Part shown: one piece after another, positions 4,240 to 51,126 of the stretch
Layout of the letters: every line of letters starts with the position of its first letter
Position numbering within the stretch: position 1 is the first letter of the stretch
DNA from: Pseudaquabacterium pictum
GTDB taxonomy: Bacteria; Pseudomonadota; Gammaproteobacteria; Burkholderiales; Burkholderiaceae_C
Assembly: GCF_005403045.1 (NCBI RefSeq)
Contig: NZ_BJCL01000004.1
Coordinates: forward strand, 186,001-250,000
DNA length: 64,000 bases
Reading direction: 5' to 3'
The notes under the pieces: generated by a model
What the model was told of the DNA's origin: nothing
The model's input: the letters and a program-made list of their open reading frames with translations, nothing else
Databases searched by the model: none
Made by a program: the position numbers and the translations under genes

Positions 4240-5253
4240 ATGGCTGCACCGCTGCTCGAGGTCAAGAACCTCACCACCCGCTTCCGCACCGAGCGGGGTG
4301 AACTGACCGCCGTCGACGACGTCAGCTTCAGCGTGCAGCCGGGGCAGACGCTGGCCATCGTCGGCGAATCGGGCTCGGGCAAGAGCGTCACCGCGCTGTC
4401 GCTGATGCGGCTGATCCCCGATCCGCCGGGCCGCATCACCAATGGGCAGCTCCTGTTCGAGGGGCAGGACCTGCTGAAGCTCAGCGATGCCGAGATGCGT
4501 GCCATCCGCGGCGACCGCATCGCGATGATCTTCCAGGAGCCGATGAGCAGCCTGAACCCGGCGCTGACCGTGGGCATGCAGATCGCCGAGCCGGTGAACC
4601 TGCACCGCAAGATGCCCTGGACCCAGGCCTACGAGGTGGCCAAGGGCCTGCTGGGTAAGGTGCGCATCCCCGATGCCGCCAGCCGCCTGCAGACCTGGCC
4701 GCACCAATACTCGGGCGGCATGCGCCAGCGCACGATGATCGCGATGGCGCTGGCCTGCCAGCCCAAGCTGATCATCGCCGACGAGCCCACCACCGCGCTG
4801 GATGTGACGGTGCAGGCCCAGATCCTGGACCTGCTGAAGGAACTGACCCGCGAGACCGGCGCCGCGCTGATCCTGATCACCCATGACCTGGGCGTGGTGG
4901 CGCGTTACGCCGACCATGTGGCGGTGATGTACGGCGGGCGCATCGTCGAGCAGGCCGAGGCCGGCGCGCTGTACGCCAGCCCGCGCCACCCCTACACCCG
5001 CGGCCTGCTGGCCTCGATCCCGCGGCTGGACAGCCATGCCGGCCAGCGCCTGGTGCCGATCCAGGGCCAGCCACCCGACCTGGCCCGCCTGCCGCCGGGC
5101 TGCGCCTTTGCACCGCGCTGCCAGCATGCCGATGCGCAGTGCAGCGCCAGCCGGCCGCTGCTGCGCATGGTGGAGCCCGGCCACCTGGCCGCCTGCCACC
5201 ACGACCACGCCATCGACGCCGTCCTCCAGCCCGCCCAAGCCCATGCCGCCTGA
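4240..5253 (+). CDS. ABC transporter ATP-binding protein, DppD/OppD type
   Basis: Cytoplasmic ATPase of the importer, 337 residues, normal for DppD. Walker A GESGSGKS begins at residue 42, the signature SGGMRQR at about 158, and Walker [13 protein letters not shown] with Asp181-Glu182, followed by the switch histidine in ITHDLGVV. The C-terminal oligopeptide-transporter extension contains the [10 protein letters not shown] cysteine cluster known in this family, which in some homologues holds an iron-sulphur cluster. The start lies one base after the upstream stop, and the 3' end overlaps the next gene by 11 bases, so it is translated with its neighbours. Confidence 0.96.
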
Positions 5254-6286
5254 CACCGCCCCCCTGCTGCAGGTCGACAACCTGAAGGTGCACTTCCCGC
5301 TGCCGGCCGCCGGCCTGCTGCGCAGATCGGCCGGCGCCGTCAAGGCGGTGGACGGCGTGTCGTTCAGCCTGAACGCCGGCGAGACGCTGGGCCTGGTGGG
5401 CGAAAGCGGCTGCGGCAAGAGCACCACCGGCCTGGCGGTGCTGCGCATGCAGCCGGTGACCAGTGGCCGCGTCATCTTCGAAGGCGCCGACATCACCACC
5501 CAGCAGGCCCGCACCGGCACCTTCCGCCGGCGCATGCAGATGGTCTACCAGGATCCGTACGGCAGCCTCAACCCGCGCATGAAGGTGCGGGATCTGGTGG
5601 GCGAGCCGCTGCAGGTGCACGGCATGGACAAGAACCCCGGCGAGTACCAGGACCGCATCGCCGGCCTGCTCAAGACCGTGGGCCTGCTGCCCGACATGGC
5701 CGACCGCTATCCGCATGAGTTCTCAGGCGGCCAGCGCCAGCGCATCGGCATCGCCCGCGCACTGGCGCTGGAGCCCAGCCTGATTATCTGCGACGAGCCG
5801 GTGTCGGCGCTGGACGTGTCGATCCAGGCCCAGGTGGTCAACGTGCTGCAGGAGCTGCAGGAGCGCCTCGGCCTGGCCTACCTGTTCATCGCGCATGACC
5901 TGGCCGTGGTGCGCCACCTCAGCCACCGGGTGGCGGTGATGTACCTGGGCCGCATCGTCGAGATCGCCAGCCGGGACGACCTCTACCGCGCGCCGCTGCA
6001 CCCGTATACCCAGGCCCTGCTGTCGGCGGTGCCGGTGGCCGATCCGGTGGTCGAGCGGGCGCGCCAGCGCATCGTCGTGCAGGGCGAGGTGCCCAGCGCG
6101 CTGAAGCCGCCGCCGGGCTGCCGCTTCCACACCCGCTGCCCGCATGCCATGGCCAAGTGCCGCACCGACGACCCGCCCTTGGCCGACCTGAGCCACCTGG
6201 GTGCCGGCCGGGCGGTGGCCTGCCACCTGCACACCGTGTCGGCCCCGGTGTCGGCCGGCTCGACGGCCCTGGCGGCCGCCGCCTGA
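5243..6286 (+). CDS. ABC transporter ATP-binding protein, DppF/OppF type
   Basis: Second ATPase of the importer, 347 residues. The ATG at 5243 lies inside the end of the DppD-type gene (11-base overlap), giving the standard N-terminus [14 protein letters not shown]. Walker [10 protein letters not shown] starts near residue 53, the signature is FSGGQRQR, and Walker [13 protein letters not shown] has its Asp at about 184. The C-terminus again carries [10 protein letters not shown]. DppD- and DppF-type subunits form a heterodimer below the two permeases. This closes the transport operon; the fused TetR regulator starts 34 bases later. Confidence 0.96.
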
Positions 6287-6320
6287 AACCCGGCCCGCCC
6301 AGCCGCCGAAAGCCGCCCGC

Positions 6321-7628
6321 ATGCAGCCGTCGGTCCCCGGCACCACCCTGCCGCCACCGACCGCCCGCTTCCAGGAGAAGCGCGAGGTGCTGCTGGACGC
6401 GGCGGCCCGCCACTTCAACGCCCAGGGCGTCAAGGGCGCCACGCTGGGCGAGATCGCCGCCCAGGTGGGCCTGGTCACCACCAGCCTGACCTACTACTAC
6501 CGCAAGAAGGAGGACCTGGCCACCGCCTGCTTCCTGCGTGCCATCGCGGCGCACGAGGCGCTGGCCCGGCAGGCCCAGGCAGAGGCGCCGGCGGCCACGG
6601 CGGCGGCACGGGTGCTCTGCTTCCTGCAACTGCATGCCCAGCTGCTGGCCGGCATGGACAGCGGCAGCCAGCCAGCGCTGATCGGCTTTGCCGACATCCG
6701 CGCGCTGCCCGAAGCCCAGGCAGCCAGCGTGTTCGCCGCCTACAACGGCATGTTCCGCCGCGTGCGGGCGCTGCTGGACGGCCCGGAGACCGCCGCTCTG
6801 GGCCGCGACGACCTCAACGCCCGCGCCCACCTGCTGCTCTCAGCCGCCCACTGGCTGCGCGCCTGGGTGCAGCGCCATGCGGTCGATGACTATCCCCGCG
6901 TGGCCCAGCGCCAGGGCCAGCTGCTGCTGCAGGGCCTGGCGGCCGCCGGCGTGGCCTGGCCTGACGCGACCAGCCTGGCCCCGCTGGGGCTGGACGCGGT
7001 GGCCGCGGCTGCGCTGCACCCGGCCGGAGCGAGCACCGGCAACCACACGGCCGACGACCACACCGCCGATGCCTTCCTGCGCGCGGCCACCATGCTGGTC
7101 AACGAGCAGGGCTACCGCGGCGCCTCGGTCGAGCGCATCTCGGCCCGGCTGCATGTGACCAAGGGCTCGTTCTACCACCACAACGAGACCAAGCACGACC
7201 TGATCACCGCCTGCTTCGACCGCAGCTTCGCGGTGGTGGGCCAGACGCTGCGCGCCGCCGCCGGCGCCCCCGGCCCGGCCTGGCAACGGGCCTGTGCGGC
7301 GACGGACGCGCTGGTGCGCTTCCAGCTGGGGTCGCAAGGCCCGCTGCTGCGCACCAGCGCCACCAGCGCCCTGCCCGACGAACCCCAGCGCGCCCATGTG
7401 CGCCGCCAGCTGCAGCAGCTCACCGGCGTGATCGCCGGCCTGCTGGTCGACGGCCTGGAAGACGGCAGCCTGCGCCCGCACGACCCGGCCATCGCCGCCC
7501 AGCTGCTGTCCTCGGCGATCAATGCCGCGGCCGAGCTGCAGCGCTGGGTGCCGGGCATCAGCCCGGCCACCTCCACGGCGCTCTACACCCGGCCGGCCCT
7601 GCTGGGCCTGCTGTGCAGCGCCGGCTGA
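6321..7628 (+). CDS. Tandem TetR-type regulator: two TetR units fused in one protein
   Basis: 435 residues, about twice the normal TetR length (190-220). A complete TetR helix-turn-helix domain lies at about residues 15-65 (GATLGEIAAQVGLVTTSLTYYY) with its ligand/dimer helices to about 235. A second HTH lies at about 245-299 (GASVERISARLHVTKGSFYHH) with another C-terminal helical domain. Both HTH units keep the family's Y/F-Y/H-Y/H recognition-helix end, so both could bind DNA. The ATG at 6321 lies just after the importer operon; control of that operon is a guess from position. There is no sign of a sequencing join: the linker is open and continuous. Confidence 0.9.
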   Translation: MQPSVPGTTLPPPTARFQEKREVLLDAAARHFNAQGVKGATLGEIAAQVGLVTTSLTYYYRKKEDLATACFLRAIAAHEALARQAQAEAPAATAAARVLCFLQLHAQLLAGMDSGSQPALIGFADIRALPEAQAASVFAAYNGMFRRVRALLDGPETAALGRDDLNARAHLLLSAAHWLRAWVQRHAVDDYPRVAQRQGQLLLQGLAAAGVAWPDATSLAPLGLDAVAAAALHPAGASTGNHTADDHTADAFLRAATMLVNEQGYRGASVERISARLHVTKGSFYHHNETKHDLITACFDRSFAVVGQTLRAAAGAPGPAWQRACAATDALVRFQLGSQGPLLRTSATSALPDEPQRAHVRRQLQQLTGVIAGLLVDGLEDGSLRPHDPAIAAQLLSSAINAAAELQRWVPGISPATSTALYTRPALLGLLCSAG

Positions 7629-42664: not shown

Positions 42665-43609
42665 ATGCATGATTTCGCCTTCCTCTCCGACAGCAGCTTC
42701 CTGCGCGTGCCACGCCAGGCCGCGCCGGCCGAGCGCCCGCTGGCCATCGCCGGCATCGCCTGGGATGGGTCCACCACCAACCGACCCGGCGCGCGCTTCG
42801 GCCCGCGGGCCATCCGCCAGGCCAGCCACATGCTGTGCGACGGCATCCACCCGGTGCTGGACAGCAACCCCACCCCGCTGCTGACCGACCTGGGCGACCT
42901 GCTGCTGCCCAACACCAGCCTGGCCGGCATGCGCGCCGCGCTGGCGCCGCAGCTGCCGGCCCTGCTGGCCGCGCACCACATGGTGTGGCTGGGCGGCGAC
43001 CACTCCATCACCCTGCCCATCCTGCGGGCGCTGGCCGCCCACCACGGCCAGCCGCTGGCGGTGGTCCACTTCGACGCGCATTGCGACACCTGGCAGGACC
43101 ACTTCGGCGAGCCCAGCGGCCACGGCACCTGGGTCAGCGAGGCCATCCAGGAAGGCCTGGTGCACCGCAGCTGCTTTACCCAGCTGGGCATCCGCTCGGC
43201 AGGTGATCCGGCGGCCACCCGCTATGTGCGCGACCAGGGCGGCCTGCTCTACACCGCCCGCGACCTGCGCGGCCGCGAGAGCAGCGCCCAGCTGGCCGAG
43301 GTGGTGCAGGCCATCCGCCAGCGCCTGGACGCGCAAGGCCGCCCGCCGGTCTACCTGAGCCTGGACATCGACTGCCTGGACCCGGCCTTCGCCCCCGGCA
43401 CCGGCACGCCCGAGCCAGCCGGCATGACCAGCGCCCAGGTGATGACCCTGCTGGAAGACCTGGCCGACCTCGACTTCGTCGGCATGGACTGCGTGGAGGT
43501 GGCACCGCCCTACGACCATGCGGAAATCACCGCCAGTGCGGCGGCTGGCTTCATCTGGACCTACCTGGCGGGGCGGGCGCGGGCCGTCAGCGCTCGGCGC
43601 GCGGGGTGA
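42665..43609 (+). CDS. Agmatinase/ureohydrolase family enzyme
   Basis: 314 residues. The binuclear-manganese ligands are visible: His113 (GGDHS), Asp137-x-His139-x-Asp141 (HFDAHCD) and Asp234-x-Asp236 (SLDIDCLDPAFAPGTGTPE). This matches the agmatinase/guanidinobutyrase/guanidinopropionase group and not arginase. It splits a guanidino compound into urea and an amine; which one is not certain. The last 23 bases overlap the end of the DUF3047 gene on the opposite strand. The LysR gene lies divergently upstream. Confidence 0.92.
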   Translation: MHDFAFLSDSSFLRVPRQAAPAERPLAIAGIAWDGSTTNRPGARFGPRAIRQASHMLCDGIHPVLDSNPTPLLTDLGDLLLPNTSLAGMRAALAPQLPALLAAHHMVWLGGDHSITLPILRALAAHHGQPLAVVHFDAHCDTWQDHFGEPSGHGTWVSEAIQEGLVHRSCFTQLGIRSAGDPAATRYVRDQGGLLYTARDLRGRESSAQLAEVVQAIRQRLDAQGRPPVYLSLDIDCLDPAFAPGTGTPEPAGMTSAQVMTLLEDLADLDFVGMDCVEVAPPYDHAEITASAAAGFIWTYLAGRARAVSARRAG

Positions 43610-44327
43610 GCGCCAGGTCGGTGATGAAACCCAGGCTGTCGCCGCCCGTGTTGTCCGCATCGGCGCCCACGGCGATGGCCAGCAGCGGCGGCACGCTGGT
43701 GGTTTCGTCGCCGAAGGCGCGGAGGAAGTCCGCCGCCAGGTCACGCTGCACGGCCTGCCAGGACCGCACGGCGGTGCCGAGGGTGAGGTAGCGGACCCGA
43801 CGGGTGTAGGCATTCGGCACCACCGTGCCCTCGGGCCACGACGGATCCCACACGTAGCACACGGTGGCCGACGGCAGGCGCTCGCCGGTGCGGCTCTCGG
43901 CCAGCCGCAGCAGCTGGCGTTCCAGGAACGGCACGGCGGCGCGGGGCATGTCGAACAGGGCGCAGACCTTCAGCGCCACATCATCGCCCTGGCGGCTGCG
44001 CAGGTCCGCCGCGGCCAGCGGCTGGTCGACACGCCAACGCCAGGCCAGCCGCCCCGCGGCGCCGTCCTTCAGCGGATGCACCAGGTTGCCGTAGGACGCC
44101 ACCGCCTGGATGCGCAGCACCACACCGCCGTCCAGCGGCGCCAGCTGGAAGCGGGTGACCGGCAGCGTCTGCGCCGGAAGCTTGGCCAGCACCCAGGGCG
44201 CTGGCGGCAGGGAACCGGGCGACCCCGCCAGCGGCGCCAAGGGCGGCACCAGCAACTGCGCCGCCGCCAGGCAGGGCGCCAGCGCGCCGATCAACCCGGC
44301 CCAGCGCCGCACGTGGTGGTGGCGCAT
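43587..44327 (-). CDS. DUF3047 domain protein
   Basis: 246 residues. A likely signal peptide (LIGALAPCLAAAQ, cut near residue 23) and then the DUF3047 core are seen: PVTRFQLAPLDGGVVLRIQAVASYGNLVHPL, LAWRWRVDQPLAAADLRSRQGDDVALKV, and an acidic end GDSLGFITDLAL. The function of DUF3047 is unknown; it is periplasmic with a carbohydrate-binding-like beta sandwich look. It is the last gene of the six-gene ArsS operon, and starts four bases after the stop of the TIGR04282 gene. The start at 44327 was chosen because it alone gives a signal peptide. Confidence 0.82.
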   Translation of the reverse strand: MRHHHVRRWAGLIGALAPCLAAAQLLVPPLAPLAGSPGSLPPAPWVLAKLPAQTLPVTRFQLAPLDGGVVLRIQAVASYGNLVHPLKDGAAGRLAWRWRVDQPLAAADLRSRQGDDVALKVCALFDMPRAAVPFLERQLLRLAESRTGERLPSATVCYVWDPSWPEGTVVPNAYTRRVRYLTLGTAVRSWQAVQRDLAADFLRAFGDETTSVPPLLAIAVGADADNTGGDSLGFITDLALTPRAER

Positions 44328-44331
44328 GCGG

Positions 44332-45048
44332 TCAGGCCAGCGGTCGCACCGCATCGCCGGCACCGCCATCAGGCCCGCGCAGGATGCGGTCGAGACGGGA
44401 CACATCGGCACCGCTGCCCGCGGGCCACCAGGCCTCGACGTCGGTGCGCCAGCCCGGCGGCAGGTGCACCAGGTCGGCCGGCTCGTCGATGTCGGCCACC
44501 GGCGCCAGCTCGGCCCAGCGCACGCCGGCGGCACGCAGCCGTTCGCGGGTGTCGTCCATCACGCGGGCATGGCTCCAGGCCATGCCGTCGAAGCAGCGCG
44601 CATCGGCCCGGCGCTGACCCACCAGGACGTAGCCGCCATCCAGCGCAGGCACGAACACGGCATCGTGGTCCTGCAGCGCCTGGGCGGCCTGGCGCAGCAC
44701 GGCTGCATCCAGCCCCGGCGCATCGGTGCCGATCAGCAGCGCGCGGCCATGCGCCGCCAGGCTGCGCGCCAGGGCGCGGTGCATGCGCTGGCCCAGGTCG
44801 CCGCTGCCTTGCGCAGCCAGGGTGGCGCCGTGCTGCGCGGCTGCGGCCTGCAGGGCAGGGTGCCCGGCATCGGGCGTGGCGCACAGTTCCACCGGGCCCA
44901 CACCAGCCGCCGTGGCCTGGGCCAGGGCATGGCGCAGCATGCGCTCGGCGAGCGCCGCGGCGCCGGCCGTGCCCAGCACGGGGGCCAGGCGTGTCTTGGC
45001 CAGGCCGGGCACGGGGGCCTTGGCAAACACGATCACCGCCGTGCTCAC
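44332..45048 (-). CDS. Arsenosugar-type glycosyltransferase, TIGR04282 family
   Basis: 238 residues of a GT-A-like nucleotidyl/glycosyl transferase. The N-terminus AVIVFAKAPVPGLAKTRL carries the nucleotide-binding KxPxxGxxKTRL motif; RALLIGTDAPGLDAAVLRQA and DAVFVPALDGGYVLVGQ are the other family blocks. TIGR04282 is defined by genomic association with ArsS and TIGR04283 in arsenosugar biosynthesis. The start is a GTG at 45048 that overlaps the upstream stop (GTGA). It transfers a sugar-like group in the cytosol, but the donor and acceptor have not been shown from sequence. Confidence 0.9.
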   Translation of the reverse strand: MSTAVIVFAKAPVPGLAKTRLAPVLGTAGAAALAERMLRHALAQATAAGVGPVELCATPDAGHPALQAAAAQHGATLAAQGSGDLGQRMHRALARSLAAHGRALLIGTDAPGLDAAVLRQAAQALQDHDAVFVPALDGGYVLVGQRRADARCFDGMAWSHARVMDDTRERLRAAGVRWAELAPVADIDEPADLVHLPPGWRTDVEAWWPAGSGADVSRLDRILRGPDGGAGDAVRPLA

Positions 45049-45722
45049 CGGTAGGCCTCCGCCAGGCGTGCCGCCGATTCGCCACGCCAGTAACGCCAGC
45101 GCAGCCGCCACATCAGCAGGATGGTGCGCCAGACGCCGCGCTGCTCCCAGCGCCGGCCCGAGGTGCAGACCCGCGCACGCAGGCAGGCCGGCGGCCCCAG
45201 CCGCTTGAGCCGCCGCGAGATCTCGATGTCCTCCATCAGCGGCTGGACCGGGAAGCCGCCCACCTGGTCGAAGGCATCACGGGTGACGAAGATCGCCTGG
45301 TCACCGGTGGCGATGCCGCTGCAGCGCGAGCGCAGGTTCATCAGCGCCGCCACCACGCGCAGCATCCAGGGCCGGCCGGCGATGCGCACGTCGAAGCGGC
45401 CCCAGGACGCGCCGGCGGCCAGGGCCTGCGCCACCAGCACATCGGCCAGCGGTGGCAGGCGGGTGTCGGCATGCAGGAACAGCAGCGCCGCCCCGCGGGC
45501 CTGCGCGGCGCCGGCGTTCATCTGCAGTGCACGTCCGCGCGGTGCGTCCACCACGGCATCGACCCAGGGCCGGGCCAGTGCCGGCGTGGCGTCGCTGCTG
45601 TGGCCATCGGCCAGCACCAGCTCGACACCCCGCGCCCGCAGGGGCTGCAGGGCCTGCAGCGTGGCCTCGATGCCTGCGGCCTCGTCCAGGGCCGGCACCA
45701 CGATCGACAGTGCCGGTCTCAT
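45045..45722 (-). CDS. Arsenosugar-type glycosyltransferase, TIGR04283 family
   Basis: 225-residue family-2 glycosyltransferase. It opens with LSIVVPALDEAAGIEATL and has the acidic donor-binding LVLADGHSSDATP and FLHADTRLPP, then a QAIFVTRDAFDQVGGFP acceptor block and a C-terminal hydrophobic end (ILLMWRLRWRY). This subfamily is known with ArsS and TIGR04282 in arsenosugar clusters. The ATG at 45722 overlaps the DUF547 stop (ATGA), and its own stop overlaps the next gene, so translation is coupled on both sides. Confidence 0.9.
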   Translation of the reverse strand: MRPALSIVVPALDEAAGIEATLQALQPLRARGVELVLADGHSSDATPALARPWVDAVVDAPRGRALQMNAGAAQARGAALLFLHADTRLPPLADVLVAQALAAGASWGRFDVRIAGRPWMLRVVAALMNLRSRCSGIATGDQAIFVTRDAFDQVGGFPVQPLMEDIEISRRLKRLGPPACLRARVCTSGRRWEQRGVWRTILLMWRLRWRYWRGESAARLAEAYR

Positions 45723-46555
45723 CGTGCGTCGTTCAGCGCCCAGTCGTAATCGGTGAAGGCGATGTCGACACTGCCGGCGCGGATGCGCGCGCGGTCGGCC
45801 GGCGCGTCCGCCAGCTGGTCGGCGTAGCGCGCGGCAAACGCCGGCAGCGAGGCGATGCCGCGGTGGCCGAGGCGGAAGTCCTCGCCATACCAGTCGAAGA
45901 TCTTCGACAGCTCCAGCCGGCCGCGCTGGGCGTTGTAGCGGTTGCGGGTGCGGTCGCTCATGAAGCGCAGCGTCTGCTCGTCCATCTGCGCGTCCAGCCG
46001 GGCGGCGACGAAGGCCTCCTCGCGCAGCGCCGGGCAGCCGATGCTGGCGCAGTTGACCGCGAAGTGCACCCGCGGATCGTCGTATTCACCGCGCTTGCGC
46101 AGCATGGCGTGCTCGATGTCGTCCAGCGACACCTTGCCGCCCAGCAGGCTGATCCACTGGGGCTTCCAGGGGCTGCTGAGCAGGCTGCCGAGGTCCTTGA
46201 TCGACTTCAGATCCGGGTAACGGGTGAGGATCAGCTCGACCGTGAAGGCGTTGTAGGCATTGGTGAGGAAGGCCTGGCGCTCGGCCTTGGACCAGGCGCC
46301 GAAGCTGCCCGACGCCACCGCCGACAGGCTGTCGAGGTAAGTCTTCAGCGCCGCGCGGTCGGCCTTGAAGCCGGCATAGGCCACCTGCGTGGCCTGGCCG
46401 CCGCGCAGCAGCCGCACATGCTTGCGCAGCAGCGCCGTCCAGGCCGCGTGGCTGTGGTCGAAGCCGGCGGACTGCGCCCGCAGCGGTGGCGGCAGCAGGG
46501 CCGCGGTGCTGGCCAGTGCCAGGCCCAGCCAGTGGCGTCGTGGCAGTGTCGTCAT
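45719..46555 (-). CDS. DUF547 domain protein, exported
   Basis: 278 residues. A signal peptide with two arginines (MTTLPRRHWLGLALASTAALLPPPLRA, a possible Tat signal) is followed by the DUF547 domain: FLTNAYNAFTVELIL, the HFAVNCASIGCPALREEAF Cys/His stretch and LSKIFDWYGEDF. In DUF547 the Asn-Cys-x-S-x-GCP motif resembles a papain-like nucleophile, but no activity is proven. The family is often found with ArsS-type genes. The ATG at 46555 overlaps the stop of the reductase-fusion gene. Confidence 0.87.
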   Translation of the reverse strand: MTTLPRRHWLGLALASTAALLPPPLRAQSAGFDHSHAAWTALLRKHVRLLRGGQATQVAYAGFKADRAALKTYLDSLSAVASGSFGAWSKAERQAFLTNAYNAFTVELILTRYPDLKSIKDLGSLLSSPWKPQWISLLGGKVSLDDIEHAMLRKRGEYDDPRVHFAVNCASIGCPALREEAFVAARLDAQMDEQTLRFMSDRTRNRYNAQRGRLELSKIFDWYGEDFRLGHRGIASLPAFAARYADQLADAPADRARIRAGSVDIAFTDYDWALNDAR

Positions 46556-48717
46556 GCCCGCTCCCAGGCGTGGTAACGCCCCACCCACTGCAGCAGCGTC
46601 TGCGGCGCATGGGTGCGCTTCCATTCGCCGGCCACCGCCTTGTTGGCCTCGGCCAGCGTGGGGTAGGTGTGGATGGTGCCGAGGATCTTGTTCAGGCCCA
46701 GGCCATGCTTCATGGCCAGCACGTATTCGGCCAGCAGGTCACCGGCGTGCTCGCCGACGATGGTCACGCCCAGGATCCTGTCCTTGCCGGGCACGGTGAG
46801 CACCTTGACGAAGCCGTGCGCCGCACCGTCGGCGATGGCGCGGTCGAGGTCGTCGATGCCGTAGCGTGTCACCTCGTAGGCCACGCCCTGCTCCCGGGCT
46901 TCCACCTCGCTCAGGCCCACCCGCGCCACCTCGGGGTCGGTGAAGGTGGCCCAGGGGATCACGCGGTAGTCGGCCTTGAAGCGGCGGAAGCGGCCGAACA
47001 GCGCATTCACCGCCGCATACCAGGCCTGGTGGGCGGCGGTGTGGGTGAACTGGAACGGCCCGGCCACATCACCCACGGCATAGATGTTGGGGTACAGCGT
47101 CTGCAGGTAGGCATTGGTCTCGATGGTCTTGCGCGGGGTCAGCGGGATCCCCAGTTCCTCCAGCCCGTAGCCGGTGACACGCGGGCTGCGGCCCACCGCG
47201 CACAGCAGGTCGTCGAAGGGAATGGCCACCTCCACGCCGCCGGCCTTGGCGATCAGCCGTTTCTCCCCGTCCACCACCTCGACCCGCACCGCCTGGTGGC
47301 CGGTGAGCACGTTCACGCCATCGGCGCGCAGCGAGGCGGTCACCAGGGCCGAGACCTCGGGGTCCTCGCGCCCCATGATGCGCGGCGCCATCTCCACCTG
47401 GGTGACGGCACTGCCCAGCCGGGCAAAGCTCTGCGCCAGCTCGCTGCCGATGGGACCGCCGCCCAGCACCACCAAGCGCTTTGGCAACTTGGTCAGGCCC
47501 CACACCGTGTCACTGGTGAGGAAGCCGGCTTCCTTCAGCCCCGGGATCGGCGGCACGAAGGGGCTGGCCCCGGCGGCGATGACGATGTTCTTCGTCGTCA
47601 GGGTCTGCTGGCTGCCATCGGCCAGCGCCACCTCCACCGTCCAGGGGCTGGTGATGCGGGCGTGGCCCTGCAGCACCTCCACGCCCAGGCCGGTGTAGCG
47701 TTCCACCGAGTCGTGCGGCGCGATGTCGGCGATGACCCGGTGCACCCGCTGCATCACCGCGGCGAAGTCGACCCGGCCGGCGGCATCGGTCACGCCGAGC
47801 TCGTGGGCCTTCTTCAGCTGCTGCGCCATCTTGGCCGAGCGGATCAGCGCCTTGCTGGGCACGCAGCCGAAGTTCAGGCAGTCGCCGCCCATCTTGTGGC
47901 CTTCGATCAGCGTCACCTTGGCCTTGACGGCCGCGGCAATGTAGGCCGAGACCAGGCCACCGGCGCCGGCGCCGATCACCACCAGGTTGCGGTCGAAGGA
48001 CCGTGGCCTGGTCCATTTGGCGTAGACCTTGCGCTGTGCCAGCCAGCCCACGCCGGCCTTGGCCAGCAGCGGGAACAGGCCCAGCAGCACGAAGCTGCCC
48101 CACAGGCCCGGCGAGAGGATGTCGCCGGCCGACTGCACCGCCGCCAGCTGCGTGCCGGCGTTCACGAACACCGCGGTGCCGGCCAGCATGCCGACCTGGC
48201 TGACGGCATAGAAGCGGCCCGCGCCGATGGGCGTCAGGCCCATCATCAGGTTCACCAGCCAGAACGGGAACACCGGCACCAGGCGCAGCGTCAGCAGGTA
48301 GAAGGTGCCGTCCTGGCGCACACCCTCGTTGATGGGTGCCAGCGCCTGGCCGAAGCGGGCCTGGATGGTGTCACGCAGCAGGTAGCGCGCCGCCAGGAAG
48401 GCCAGCAGGGCGCCCAGGCTGGACGCGAAGCTCACCAGCAGCAGGCCCCAGCCCAGGCCGAACATGGCGCCGGCCGCCAGCGTGAGGATCAGCGCGCCGG
48501 GGATCGACAGCGCCGCGGCGGCCACATAGATGGCAAAGAAGATGGCGGCGGTGGTGATCGGCTGGGCCTGCACCCGCGCCTGCAGCGCATCGCGGCTGGC
48601 CTTGAGGTTGTCCAGCGTCAGCAGCGCACCCAGGCCGAAGTGCTGCCAAGCCCACACGGCCGCCAGCACCAAGGCCGCCGCGCCGGCCCACAGCAGGGCT
48701 TTGGGGGGGCGGGCCAT
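46552..48717 (-). CDS. Fusion of TVP38/TMEM64 membrane domain and dithiol FAD oxidoreductase
   Basis: 721 residues. The N-terminal 235 form a TVP38/TMEM64 (SNARE-associated/DedA-like) membrane region with about six helices (FFAIYVAAAALSIPGALIL; FWLVNLMMGLTPIG). From about 243 it is a pyridine-nucleotide disulphide reductase: FAD-binding GAGAGG, redox pair Cys280/Cys285 in GGDCLNFGCVPS, NADH-binding GGGPIG, and the C-terminal dimerisation domain with a HTYPTLAEA end containing the base His. Mercury-reductase-like proteins are relatives. The fusion puts a reductase on the membrane. The ATG at 48717 overlaps the ArsS stop. A metal or quinone reduction role is inferred. Confidence 0.9.
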   Translation of the reverse strand: MARPPKALLWAGAAALVLAAVWAWQHFGLGALLTLDNLKASRDALQARVQAQPITTAAIFFAIYVAAAALSIPGALILTLAAGAMFGLGWGLLLVSFASSLGALLAFLAARYLLRDTIQARFGQALAPINEGVRQDGTFYLLTLRLVPVFPFWLVNLMMGLTPIGAGRFYAVSQVGMLAGTAVFVNAGTQLAAVQSAGDILSPGLWGSFVLLGLFPLLAKAGVGWLAQRKVYAKWTRPRSFDRNLVVIGAGAGGLVSAYIAAAVKAKVTLIEGHKMGGDCLNFGCVPSKALIRSAKMAQQLKKAHELGVTDAAGRVDFAAVMQRVHRVIADIAPHDSVERYTGLGVEVLQGHARITSPWTVEVALADGSQQTLTTKNIVIAAGASPFVPPIPGLKEAGFLTSDTVWGLTKLPKRLVVLGGGPIGSELAQSFARLGSAVTQVEMAPRIMGREDPEVSALVTASLRADGVNVLTGHQAVRVEVVDGEKRLIAKAGGVEVAIPFDDLLCAVGRSPRVTGYGLEELGIPLTPRKTIETNAYLQTLYPNIYAVGDVAGPFQFTHTAAHQAWYAAVNALFGRFRRFKADYRVIPWATFTDPEVARVGLSEVEAREQGVAYEVTRYGIDDLDRAIADGAAHGFVKVLTVPGKDRILGVTIVGEHAGDLLAEYVLAMKHGLGLNKILGTIHTYPTLAEANKAVAGEWKRTHAPQTLLQWVGRYHAWERA

Positions 48718-49709
48718 CAGCGGGCGCCCTCGGCCTCGGCCGCCGCCGCTTCCAGCGCACCGCCGCAACTGCTGCCCTGGCCGGCCGTGCAGCCGTAGCA
48801 ATGGTCGGCGATGCGGATGTCGGTGCCTGCCGCGCCGTGTTGCAGCAGGTCACGCAGGTGCGGCTGCGACTGCCCGCCGATGCTGGCGCGCAGGCCCAGC
48901 ATCTGGTTGAAGTCGCAGTCGAAGAGGAAGCCCTGCCAGTCGACGCTGAGCAGGCTGCGGCACATCACGGTGTCGAGGTTCTCGGCGCGGTAGCTGCCAT
49001 GCAGCAGCTGCATGTAGCTGCCGAACGTGCCCTGGCTGACCAGCGTGCTGCCGAAGCGCTGGATCGGCATGTTGGTCAGCGCGAACAGGTGGTCGAAGCG
49101 GATGCCGAAGTGCAGCAGCAGCTCGCGCTTGTAGTCGGCCTCCAGCGGCCCCTGCGGTGGCGGCAGCACCGGGCCCTGCGGGTTGTAGACGAGGTTCAGC
49201 ACCAGACCGCGGGCGGGGTCACCGTAGCCCAGCGCATTGAGCTGGCGCAGCCCGGCGATGCTGCGCTCGAACACGCCGTCGCCGCGCTGCCGGTCGACAT
49301 TGGCCGGCGAGTAGCAGGGCAGCGAGGCGGTGACCTCCACCCCCTGCCCGGCCAGGAAGGCCGCCAGATCGTCCTGGCCCGGCTCGGACAGGATGGTGAG
49401 GTTGCAGCGGTCGATGACCCGCACGCCCAGTGCCCGGGCCTGGCGCACCAGGTGGCGGAAGTGCAGATTCAGCTCCGGCGCCCCGCCGGTGAGGTCCAGC
49501 GTCGCCACCCGGCGGGTGCGCAGCACCTCGATCACCAGGGCGACCGTGTCGCCGTCCATCATCTCGGTGCGCTGCGGGCTGGCCGCCACGTGGCAGTGCA
49601 GGCAGCTCTGGTTGCACTTGTAGCCCAGGTTCACCTGGAGGGTGTCCAGCGAGCGGCGCCGGATCGGCGGGAAGTCGGTGGCGGCGAGCAGGGGCAGGGT
49701 GGCGTGCAT
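48717..49709 (-). CDS. arsS: Arsenosugar biosynthesis radical SAM protein ArsS
   Basis: 330 residues. The radical-SAM cluster Cys32-x3-Cys36-x2-Cys39 is seen in YKCNQSCLHCH. The C-terminal ArsS-specific region has the CYGCTAGQGSSCGG cysteine block (about 304-317), which includes a second possible cluster. ArsS puts a 5'-deoxyadenosyl group from SAM on methylated arsenic to start arsenosugar formation. The expected arsM methyltransferase is not in the window. It is the first gene of the operon, with the start at 49709 about 28 bases below the predicted transcript start. The ATG is preferred over an upstream in-frame start that has no family similarity. Confidence 0.93.
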   Translation of the reverse strand: MHATLPLLAATDFPPIRRRSLDTLQVNLGYKCNQSCLHCHVAASPQRTEMMDGDTVALVIEVLRTRRVATLDLTGGAPELNLHFRHLVRQARALGVRVIDRCNLTILSEPGQDDLAAFLAGQGVEVTASLPCYSPANVDRQRGDGVFERSIAGLRQLNALGYGDPARGLVLNLVYNPQGPVLPPPQGPLEADYKRELLLHFGIRFDHLFALTNMPIQRFGSTLVSQGTFGSYMQLLHGSYRAENLDTVMCRSLLSVDWQGFLFDCDFNQMLGLRASIGGQSQPHLRDLLQHGAAGTDIRIADHCYGCTAGQGSSCGGALEAAAAEAEGAR

Positions 49710-49743
49710 GGGTGTCCGGTTCGGCAGGAAGCGACACCCGGTA

Positions 49744-49769
49744 TTCGCGCCAGCGCGCCGATCGGTTAC
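49744..49769 (-). promoter_or_regulatory. Predicted SigF-type ECF promoter for the arsS operon
   Basis: Read on the minus strand: GTAACC at 49769-49764, a 16-base spacer, CGAA at 49747-49744. Spacing and both boxes are exact for the GTAACC-N16-CGAA element known (to my recollection) for the Caulobacter SigF ECF sigma factor. The transcript should begin a few bases below 49744 and leave a short leader before the ArsS ATG at 49709. The sigma factor of the same class is encoded divergently at 49886. Confidence 0.72.
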
Positions 49770-49859
49770 AGCCGGCACCGCCGCCGCGGCCTGGGTGCCT
49801 TGGGCGGCACAATGGTCTCACTGAACCGGCACACCGACCCACCCATCCTGCGGGCCGGT

Positions 49860-49885
49860 GTAACCAAAGGGGCTTGCGCCGCGAC
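49860..49885 (+). promoter_or_regulatory. Near-match SigF-type element before the sigma factor gene
   Basis: GTAACC at 49860-49865, 16-base spacer, CGAC at 49882-49885 (one mismatch to CGAA) directly before the ATG at 49886. A promoter here would start transcription inside the coding sequence, so either the true start codon is further in or this is not a working promoter. It is reported because the same -35 box occurs twice in the divergent region. Confidence 0.3.
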
Positions 49886-50494
49886 ATGCCTGTTGACGAC
49901 AGCCACGGCGACTTCGAGTCAGCCCTCAAGCCGCTTTGGCTGCGTGCGCAGTCGGGCGATGACGCCGCCTACCGGCAAGCCTTGGGCCTGCTGGCGGCGC
50001 GGCTGCGCGCCTACTTGAAGCGCCGTCTCGCGGGCTGGCCCGACGAGGTGGAAGACCTGGTTCAGGAGACGCTGTTGGCCCTGCATCTGCAACGTGGCAC
50101 CTACGACCCGACGCTGGCTGTCAGCGCCTGGGCCGTGGCGATCGCACGCCACAAGCTGGTCGACCTGTGGCGCCGGCGTGGCCGGCGCGACAAGCTGCAC
50201 GACGCCATCGACGATGTGGACGAGCAACTGCTGGCGGCCGAGCCCGACGACGGCGGCGCCCGGCGTGATCTGGAAACGCTGTTCGGCGCCTTGCCGCAGG
50301 CCCAGCGGCAGGCCATCGTGCTGACCAAGCTCGAAGGCCTCTCGGTGGCCGAAGCGGCGGCGCGCACCGGCGCGTCCGAATCGGCCATCAAGGTGCAGGT
50401 GCACCGCGGCCTGAAACGCCTGGCGGCCCTGGTCCGCCAGGACACCCGGGATGACCCAGGCACGCACCAGCCTGGTCCAGCACGCCCGACATGA
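49886..50494 (+). CDS. ECF-type RNA polymerase sigma factor (SigF-like)
   Basis: 202 residues. Region 2 is at about 30-95 (DEVEDLVQETLLALHLQRGTYD, then AWAVAIARHKLVDLWRRRGRR), and region 4 at about 140-190 (LPQAQRQAIVLTKLEGLSVAEAAARTGASESAIKVQVHRGLKRL). The short N-terminus and overlap with the anti-sigma are like the sigF-nrsF pair of Caulobacter, which answers chromate, cadmium and other heavy metals. The ATG at 49886 gives the expected N-terminal length. The gene is divergent to arsS, 176 bases apart. Confidence 0.92.
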   Translation: MPVDDSHGDFESALKPLWLRAQSGDDAAYRQALGLLAARLRAYLKRRLAGWPDEVEDLVQETLLALHLQRGTYDPTLAVSAWAVAIARHKLVDLWRRRGRRDKLHDAIDDVDEQLLAAEPDDGGARRDLETLFGALPQAQRQAIVLTKLEGLSVAEAAARTGASESAIKVQVHRGLKRLAALVRQDTRDDPGTHQPGPARPT

Positions 50495-51126
50495 AGACCG
50501 ATGCCCTGATCGACCTGCTGGCCCGCGACGCCGGCCCCGCACCCCGTGCGCTGGCGGCGCGCCGGCTGTCGCCTGCCGCCGCCGCCGGCCTGCTGATGAG
50601 CGCAGCGATCTCGATCGCCTGGTTCGGCGTCATCCCGGCGCCGATGTTCGCCACCGCCGTGCCGTGGACGAAGATGGCCTATGCCGGCGCCCTGGCGCTG
50701 GCCGCCGGCTGGCTGACGGCGCGCCTGTCGCGGCCGGCGGCGCCGACCGCCCAGCCGCGGCGCCTGACCGTCCTGGTGCTGCTGGCCATGGCGGCGGTGG
50801 GTGGCGTTTCGCTGGCCGCCACGCCACCCGGTGCGCGCCTGGATGGCCTGCTCGGCCATTCCTGGGCCTCGTGCCCCTGGAGCGTGTTGGCGCTGTCGCT
50901 GCCGGCGCTGGCAGCCGCGCTCTGGTCGGTGCGCGGCCTCGCGCCAACGCGGCCCCGGGCCGCCGGGTTCGCGGCCGGGCTGTTGGCCGGCTCGGTGGGC
51001 GCCTTCGGCTATGCCTTGTCCTGTCCCGAGGCCTCGCCGGCCTTCGTGGCTGTGTGGTACACGCTGGGCATCGCCGTCACCGGCGCTGTCGGCGCCGCCC
51101 TCGGGCCCCGGCTGCTGCGCTGGTGA
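50491..51126 (+). CDS. nrsF: NrsF-type (DUF1109) membrane anti-sigma factor
   Basis: 211 residues with six hydrophobic helices in three pairs. Conserved periplasmic-side cysteines are visible in HSWASCPWSV and YALSCPEASPAFVAVWYTLG. In Caulobacter the NrsF cysteines are required for the response to metals. The short N-terminal cytoplasmic segment would bind the sigma factor. Its ATG overlaps the sigma stop (ATGA), so the two are made together in the way usual for sigma/anti-sigma pairs. Confidence 0.9.
   Translation: MKTDALIDLLARDAGPAPRALAARRLSPAAAAGLLMSAAISIAWFGVIPAPMFATAVPWTKMAYAGALALAAGWLTARLSRPAAPTAQPRRLTVLVLLAMAAVGGVSLAATPPGARLDGLLGHSWASCPWSVLALSLPALAAALWSVRGLAPTRPRAAGFAAGLLAGSVGAFGYALSCPEASPAFVAVWYTLGIAVTGAVGAALGPRLLRW

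Follow-up and report, generated by a model that had tools for sequence, protein, structure and literature searches.

A predicted bidirectional SigF-type promoter region between an arsS operon and a sigF-nrsF pair in Pseudaquabacterium pictum

Operons of the ars type are usually controlled by ArsR, and the locus described here raises the question of which regulator governs an arsS operon that lies divergently from the genes of a sigma factor and its putative anti-sigma factor. The locus is part of a stretch of 64,000 nucleotides of the P. pictum genome (GCF_005403045.1, contig NZ_BJCL01000004.1, positions 186,001 to 250,000), hereafter the window, and is centered on a 176-bp gap between the ATG of arsS (49709), encoding a radical SAM protein, and the ATG of an extracytoplasmic function (ECF) sigma factor gene, here sigF (49886), which is followed by an nrsF-like gene. 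Judged from its sequence and from comparison with related genomes, this gap is very probably a bidirectional promoter region of the SigF (ECF16) class that drives both the arsS operon and sigF-nrsF under the control of NrsF. Below, the letters L, G and C designate loci, genomes and contigs, respectively.

Two SigF-type boxes in the arsS-sigF gap

The original prediction placed an exact GTAACC-N16-CGAA promoter on the minus strand in front of arsS, and this box is found inside the gap as described. A second box, absent from that prediction, faces sigF. The central elements of the locus are:

49769-49744, minus strand: predicted SigF (ECF16) promoter facing arsS, GTAACC-N16-CGAA, 34 nt before the arsS ATG, at a similar position in relatives
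49860-49885, plus strand: predicted SigF promoter facing sigF (autoregulation), GTAACC-N16-CGAC, abutting the sigma ATG
48717..49709, minus strand: arsS, radical SAM protein (TIGR04167, 445 bits), first gene of the predicted operon
49886..50494, plus strand: sigF-like ECF sigma factor, 202 aa, Sigma70 regions 2 and 4
50491..51126, plus strand: nrsF-like membrane anti-sigma factor, 211 aa, PF06532, Cys128 and Cys178, overlapping the end of sigF

The view of the two plus-strand genes as a SigF/NrsF-like pair is borne out by profile searches, in which the sigma factor matches PF04542 and PF08281, both above cut-off, and the adjoining protein matches PF06532 with 205.3 bits (cut-off 26.8). Since the latter scores 146.9 bits over its full length against NF042994 (anti-sigma-F NrsF, cut-off 300) and does not reach equivalog level, we claim membership in the NrsF family and not equivalence to the Caulobacter protein. 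Simple hydropathy gives six segments, partly overlapping, and the two cysteines are spaced like those of Caulobacter NrsF (131/181; PMC3511200) and of its Brucella homologue (129/179; PMC8315932). Among 58 aligned NrsF rows, in which one contig contributes two (L072 and L233), Cys128 is present in all and Cys178 in 38. The window genome has only one NrsF.

The consensus on which the prediction relied is indeed the one published for Caulobacter SigF (PMC3511200). In a sample of 300 genomes of the same order, NrsF exceeds its cut-off in 45, and the exact GTAACC-N16-CGAA is found in 38 of the 47 NrsF-holding stretches; since 36 of these stretches carry it within 600 bp of sigF or nrsF, the SigF family is likely to read this sequence in these bacteria.

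By chance, 0.02 exact boxes are expected in the 64-kb window and, from base composition, about 1e-4 within the gap. The genome as a whole (64 contigs, 6,136,994 bp) holds two exact boxes, and because the composition of the window alone predicts about four, it is the placement of the box and not its number that is of note. The broader pattern GTAACC-N16-CGA[AC] has four genomic matches as against 38 for a reversed control pattern, and GTAACN-N16-CGA[AC] has seven as against 130; the motif is, in other words, not as common elsewhere in this genome as at arsS. Two of the four GTAACC-N16-CGA[AC] sites lie in the gap and a third belongs to a decayed copy of the locus. The fourth (C18:98650), a CGAC site like the sigF-facing box, falls within an open reading frame (ORF) of at least 1000 codons and was treated as chance, as was the relaxed match at C18:78082, whose ORF spans at least 629 codons; further relaxed matches stand at C1:645540 and C19:43541. 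A scan allowing one mismatch was uninformative, with 106 matches, fewer than the 142 of its control. Because the sites outside the gap amount to a decayed copy and a long ORF, SigF of the window genome may act mainly on the arsS operon.

The decayed copy (L189 4261-7871; G000:C3 about 556735-560345) is preceded by the second exact box, at C3:557475. Of arsS this copy has only the first 22 codons, joined in frame to the tail of the DUF547 gene and followed by the two glycosyltransferase genes; the sigF on its other side is broken and incomplete and has a GTCACC-N16-CGAA box. The arsS-facing box is retained in the copy. A second nrsF was not found anywhere in the genome.

Recurrence of the box before arsS in other genomes

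The scan of relatives that the original prediction had called for shows that the box recurs before arsS together with sigF-nrsF and is rare elsewhere. In the order sample, ArsS exceeds its cut-off in 93 genomes, at 96 places including the window, all of which were scanned. An exact box faces arsS at five (the window, L072, L074, L083 and L098), 60-67 nt before the start, that is, at 5 of the 18 arsS loci in NrsF-positive genomes and at none of the 78 in NrsF-negative ones (Fisher p 1.4e-4, uncorrected for kinship). Likewise, the relaxed GTAACN-N16-CGA[AC] is found at 6/18 and 1/78 loci, respectively, where shuffled sequences predict 0.02 and 0.12, and the reversed control matches at 0/18 and 1/78. 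A large gene in L074 (L234) is moreover preceded by a divergent GTAACC-N15-CGAA.

The sigF-nrsF pair adjoins arsS at four of the 96 places, namely the window, L072, L098 and L060. The last of these holds a distant ArsS, with GTAACC-N16-CGAA before sigF and GTAACT-N16-CGAA 245 bp upstream of arsS; a GTAACT likewise precedes sigF in L191, L198 and L219. The near kin of L060 (L066 and L073) come from genomes lacking an NrsF match, and L060 is the clearest separate case outside the clade of exact-box ArsS proteins.

A second set consisted of named relatives, the best 80 of at least 507 confirmed matches to the window ArsS. In 8 of these 80, sigF-nrsF lies within 3.5 kb of arsS, and in L243, in addition, slightly farther away; in five an exact box faces arsS, L233 and L234 being the same contigs as L072 and L074 and counted once. 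All box-bearing or linked cases belong to the top 21 loci by score (70-90% identity), and neither a strict nor a relaxed box was found in the 59 lower-scoring ones (59-71% identity). Of 20 named genomes searched, nine have NrsF; a relaxed box precedes arsS in six of these nine (all except L237, L243 and L248) and in one of the 11 without NrsF (L235, an exact box).

Twelve distinct linked loci, drawn from both sets and selected for sigF-nrsF within about 4.5 kb of arsS, allow the boxes to be compared directly. GTAACN-N16-CGA[AC] occurs at most 300 bp before arsS in nine of them, four with the exact sequence, where 200 shuffles of each locus give none and the reversed control one of 12, and a sigF-facing box is present in 11. 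In L237 (Polaromonas sp. CG9_12, which has two NrsF genes) the box precedes a DUF3047 gene lying between it and arsS; a GTAACC at -85 from arsS in this locus was rejected as a promoter because it lies inside the DUF3047 coding sequence. L243 has the -10 variant CGTA, and L248 has GTAACC-N15-CGTC.

The boxes persist even where the genes have been rearranged. In L236, L240, L242 and L244 (three Hydrogenophaga metagenome-assembled genomes, MAGs, and one betaproteobacterial MAG) sigF, nrsF and arsS follow one another on one strand, and the gene divergent across sigF is the VTT-MerA gene (L236) or the DUF547 gene (the other three). SigF-like boxes lie before sigF and, reading GTAAC[CAG]-N16-CGAC, between nrsF and arsS, and those facing the moved gene read GTAACC-N16 followed by CGTA, CGTA, CGAC and CGTC, only one of the four fitting CGA[AC]. 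The connection between SigF and arsS appears to have been kept in several genera despite gene shuffling.

We considered whether the arsS-facing box could be a chance match or a relic, with another promoter driving arsS. The genome-wide number of boxes expected from composition and the many arsS operons that do without a box would fit this explanation. It is opposed by the strand, by the nearly constant distance to the ATG in the five exact cases, by the recurrence in linked loci and by the very low expectation within the gap, and a chance match was rejected on the placement of the box, the presence of the second box and the recurrence; taken as a whole, this explanation is very unlikely. Another possibility is that the box is used by a different ECF sigma factor of the same consensus and not by the neighboring one. 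G005 and G181 have the box and carry NrsF on another contig, and L232 showed no sigF-nrsF within 6 kb, although its genome has an NrsF; no NrsF was found at all in the genome of L235. In the window genome, by contrast, there is a single NrsF, whose sigma gene is itself faced by a box of this kind, and we regard the use of a different sigma factor as highly improbable here.

The proposal of a bidirectional SigF promoter region nevertheless meets several difficulties. Expression of arsS from its box is a prediction from sequence, and the translation of sigF from a box abutting its ATG is hard to explain, since an mRNA starting a few bases past this box would lack the ATG. The same arrangement is found in nine linked loci (the window, L072, L098, L236, L237, L239, L240, L242 and L244). 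This box may mainly raise nrsF, as a feedback, or the start of sigF may lie elsewhere; leaders can also be very short, as in Caulobacter CC2907, transcribed from -7 relative to its start codon (PMC3511200). Nine of the 47 NrsF stretches lack an exact box, two of them (L188 and L231) being cut by contig ends and two others (L191 and L230) having one-mismatch boxes. Among NrsF-negative genomes, L051 has a relaxed match, L235 an exact box, and L241 (GTAAAC-N16-CGAC), L246 and L250 (GTAACG-N15-CGAC) have near-boxes; as L235 is a MAG, the absence of NrsF from its genome is not certain. Furthermore, the five exact-box ArsS proteins fall within one seven-member clade (Shimodaira-Hasegawa-like approximate likelihood ratio test 95, from a quick tree only) that covers four families, and so are not independent trials; the remaining two members, G210 and G179, have neither box nor NrsF match. 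Finally, of the 17 genomes in the order sample that have both NrsF and arsS, 11 lack a box in front of arsS, for which reason we take the connection to be lineage-specific. In our best reading, arsS is a lineage-specific SigF/ECF16 target, a probable conserved extension of the SigF-NrsF regulon.

The distribution of arsS itself suggests horizontal transfer, because the window ArsS is 89% identical to an ArsS of another family and none of the eight other sampled members of its own family has an ArsS over cut-off.

Side by side with these results, a second sigma subfamily (about 173-205 bits) was observed adjoining NrsF in L193, L195, L197, L206, L213, L218 and others. No box was found before the sigma genes of this subfamily, and GTAACC-N16-CGAA often precedes divergent genes, some of them small, Met-rich or MsrA/MsrB-like as named by eye from sequence. 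GTAACC-N17-CGAA matches inside these sigma genes were set aside as coding sequence. Other SigF-target names given by eye include Met-rich peptides and MsrA/MsrB-, DsbD-, thioredoxin- and cytochrome b561-like proteins. In G119 and G178 two NrsF genes stand beside one sigma gene (L208 4974-6356; L215 5001-6946).

The operon, its signal and the arsenic question

From arsS to a DUF3047 gene, six genes follow one another on the minus strand, tightly packed, and are likely to be co-transcribed as an operon. Behind arsS these are:

46552..48717, minus strand: fusion of a VTT domain and a flavin adenine dinucleotide (FAD) disulfide-reductase (MerA-like), start from the ORF list
45719..46555, minus strand: DUF547 protein, start from the ORF list
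45045..45722, minus strand: TIGR04283 glycosyltransferase, profile match above cut-off
44332..45048, minus strand: TIGR04282 glycosyltransferase-like protein (DUF2064), profile match above cut-off, GTG start assumed
43587..44468, minus strand: DUF3047 protein, probably the last operon gene, start approximate

Just past nrsF, on the opposite strand, lies a gene for an eCIS core domain protein (PF13699; 51196-52737).

We hypothesize that NrsF, a membrane anti-sigma factor with two cysteines, would hold the neighboring sigma factor inactive until a thiol-reactive stress acts on it, which in the relatives studied so far is copper, chromate, cadmium or hypochlorous acid. Arsenite would be a plausible signal as well. 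Once released, the sigma factor would direct RNA polymerase both ways, to the left from the GTAACC-N16-CGAA box through arsS and the genes that follow, and to the right from the GTAACC-N16-CGAC box through sigF-nrsF.

The original prediction spoke of an arsenosugar-type operon under this control, and the two halves of that proposal fared differently. The regulatory link is supported by the recurrence of the box, whereas the arsenic label is weak: ArsM does not reach cut-off in the window genome, where the best score with NF008823, the only ArsM model searched, is 52.7 bits (cut-off 263). We therefore hold the regulatory claim firmly and, given the lack of an ArsM at cut-off together with the signals published for this class, the arsenic claim loosely.

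Accordingly, the promoter link may be real and the operon unrelated to arsenic, serving instead in copper, soft-metal or oxidant defense, with arsenosugar names transferred from distant relatives; we give this explanation somewhat less than an even chance. The published inducers of SigF/ECF16 systems are in line with it, being chromate and cadmium (PMC3511200), copper (PMC8224329) and hypochlorous acid (PMC8315932). So is the scarcity of ArsM, which reaches E<=1e-50 in only 17 of the 93 genomes in the order sample that encode ArsS; the six NrsF-positive genomes whose arsS is preceded by a SigF-type box are not among these 17 (an overlap counted by hand). On the other hand, ArsS scores 445 bits against a curated TIGR04167 cut-off of 300, and TIGR04282 and TIGR04283 are likewise above theirs. 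ArsM is present at E<=1e-50 in G114 (L051, with a relaxed box and no NrsF), exceeds its cut-off in two of 17 named genomes, one of them that of L235 with its exact box, and has a below-cut-off relative of 188 bits in the genome of the linked locus L239. Moreover, methylated arsenicals could come from neighboring organisms, and arsenite is itself thiol-reactive.

The company that arsS keeps in two relatives also favors an operon unrelated to arsenic. In L232 (an Aquabacterium MAG; 4442-6978) and L235 (a Burkholderiales MAG; 1-2134), arsS diverges from a DUF2282-MNIO gene pair, in which the DUF2282 gene comes first, and boxes face both arsS and this operon, so that arsS shares its promoter region with a bufferin-type operon. 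In Caulobacter, SigF controls an operon of the DUF2282-MNIO type (PMC3511200; PMC8224329).

Relation to known systems and significance

The closest known counterpart of the window locus is SigF-NrsF of Caulobacter crescentus, with which it shares an ECF sigma factor and a PF06532 anti-sigma factor in one operon, two spaced cysteines, the GTAACC-N16-CGAA promoter and a similar promoter before sigF (PMC3511200). The SigF-dependent genes named in the cited parts of that report are the DUF2282-DUF692-DUF2063-DoxX genes and msrP (yedY), and arsS is not among them; the window genome, in contrast, has no PF05114 (MNIO/DUF692) match. Likewise, the oxidant-defense system BcrS-AbcS of Brucella combines an ECF16 sigma factor, a six-helix DUF1109 anti-sigma factor and an adjoining target operon, and SigF of Azospira suillum is cited as a further ECF16 system of this kind (PMC8315932), whereas the target in the window is a radical SAM operon. 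NrsF and sigma genes also occur in Buf1 bufferin clusters (PMC12452194), and two relatives set the DUF2282-MNIO pair back to back with arsS; in the MNIO-free window genome the target is arsS. With the arsenosugar-type operons of the ArsS (TIGR04167) family, the window locus shares ArsS, TIGR04282 and TIGR04283 in one row, and it differs in having no ArsM at cut-off and in the SigF/NrsF pair and SigF-type boxes at its operon. Among the entries listed in a literature search, mostly outside subscription journals, no paper was found that links SigF/NrsF to arsS.

A more far-reaching idea, which we put forward tentatively and consider rather unlikely, is that SigF-NrsF and the arsS operon form a self-contained stress module that moves horizontally and in which a sensor of copper, soft metals or oxidants drives a radical SAM pathway independent of the cell's own arsenic methylation, beside bufferins or in their place as output. 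If so, the ArsS family would be partly misnamed.

With the SigF-type promoter region proposed here, the ArsS operon gains a testable regulator and signal class, and a regulon whose other described genes serve methionine repair or encode metal-binding peptides is extended by a radical SAM pathway. For this branch of ArsS, the name arsenosugar may be misleading. If the arsS operon is the main SigF target of P. pictum, a single mutant could reveal the stress that this pathway answers.
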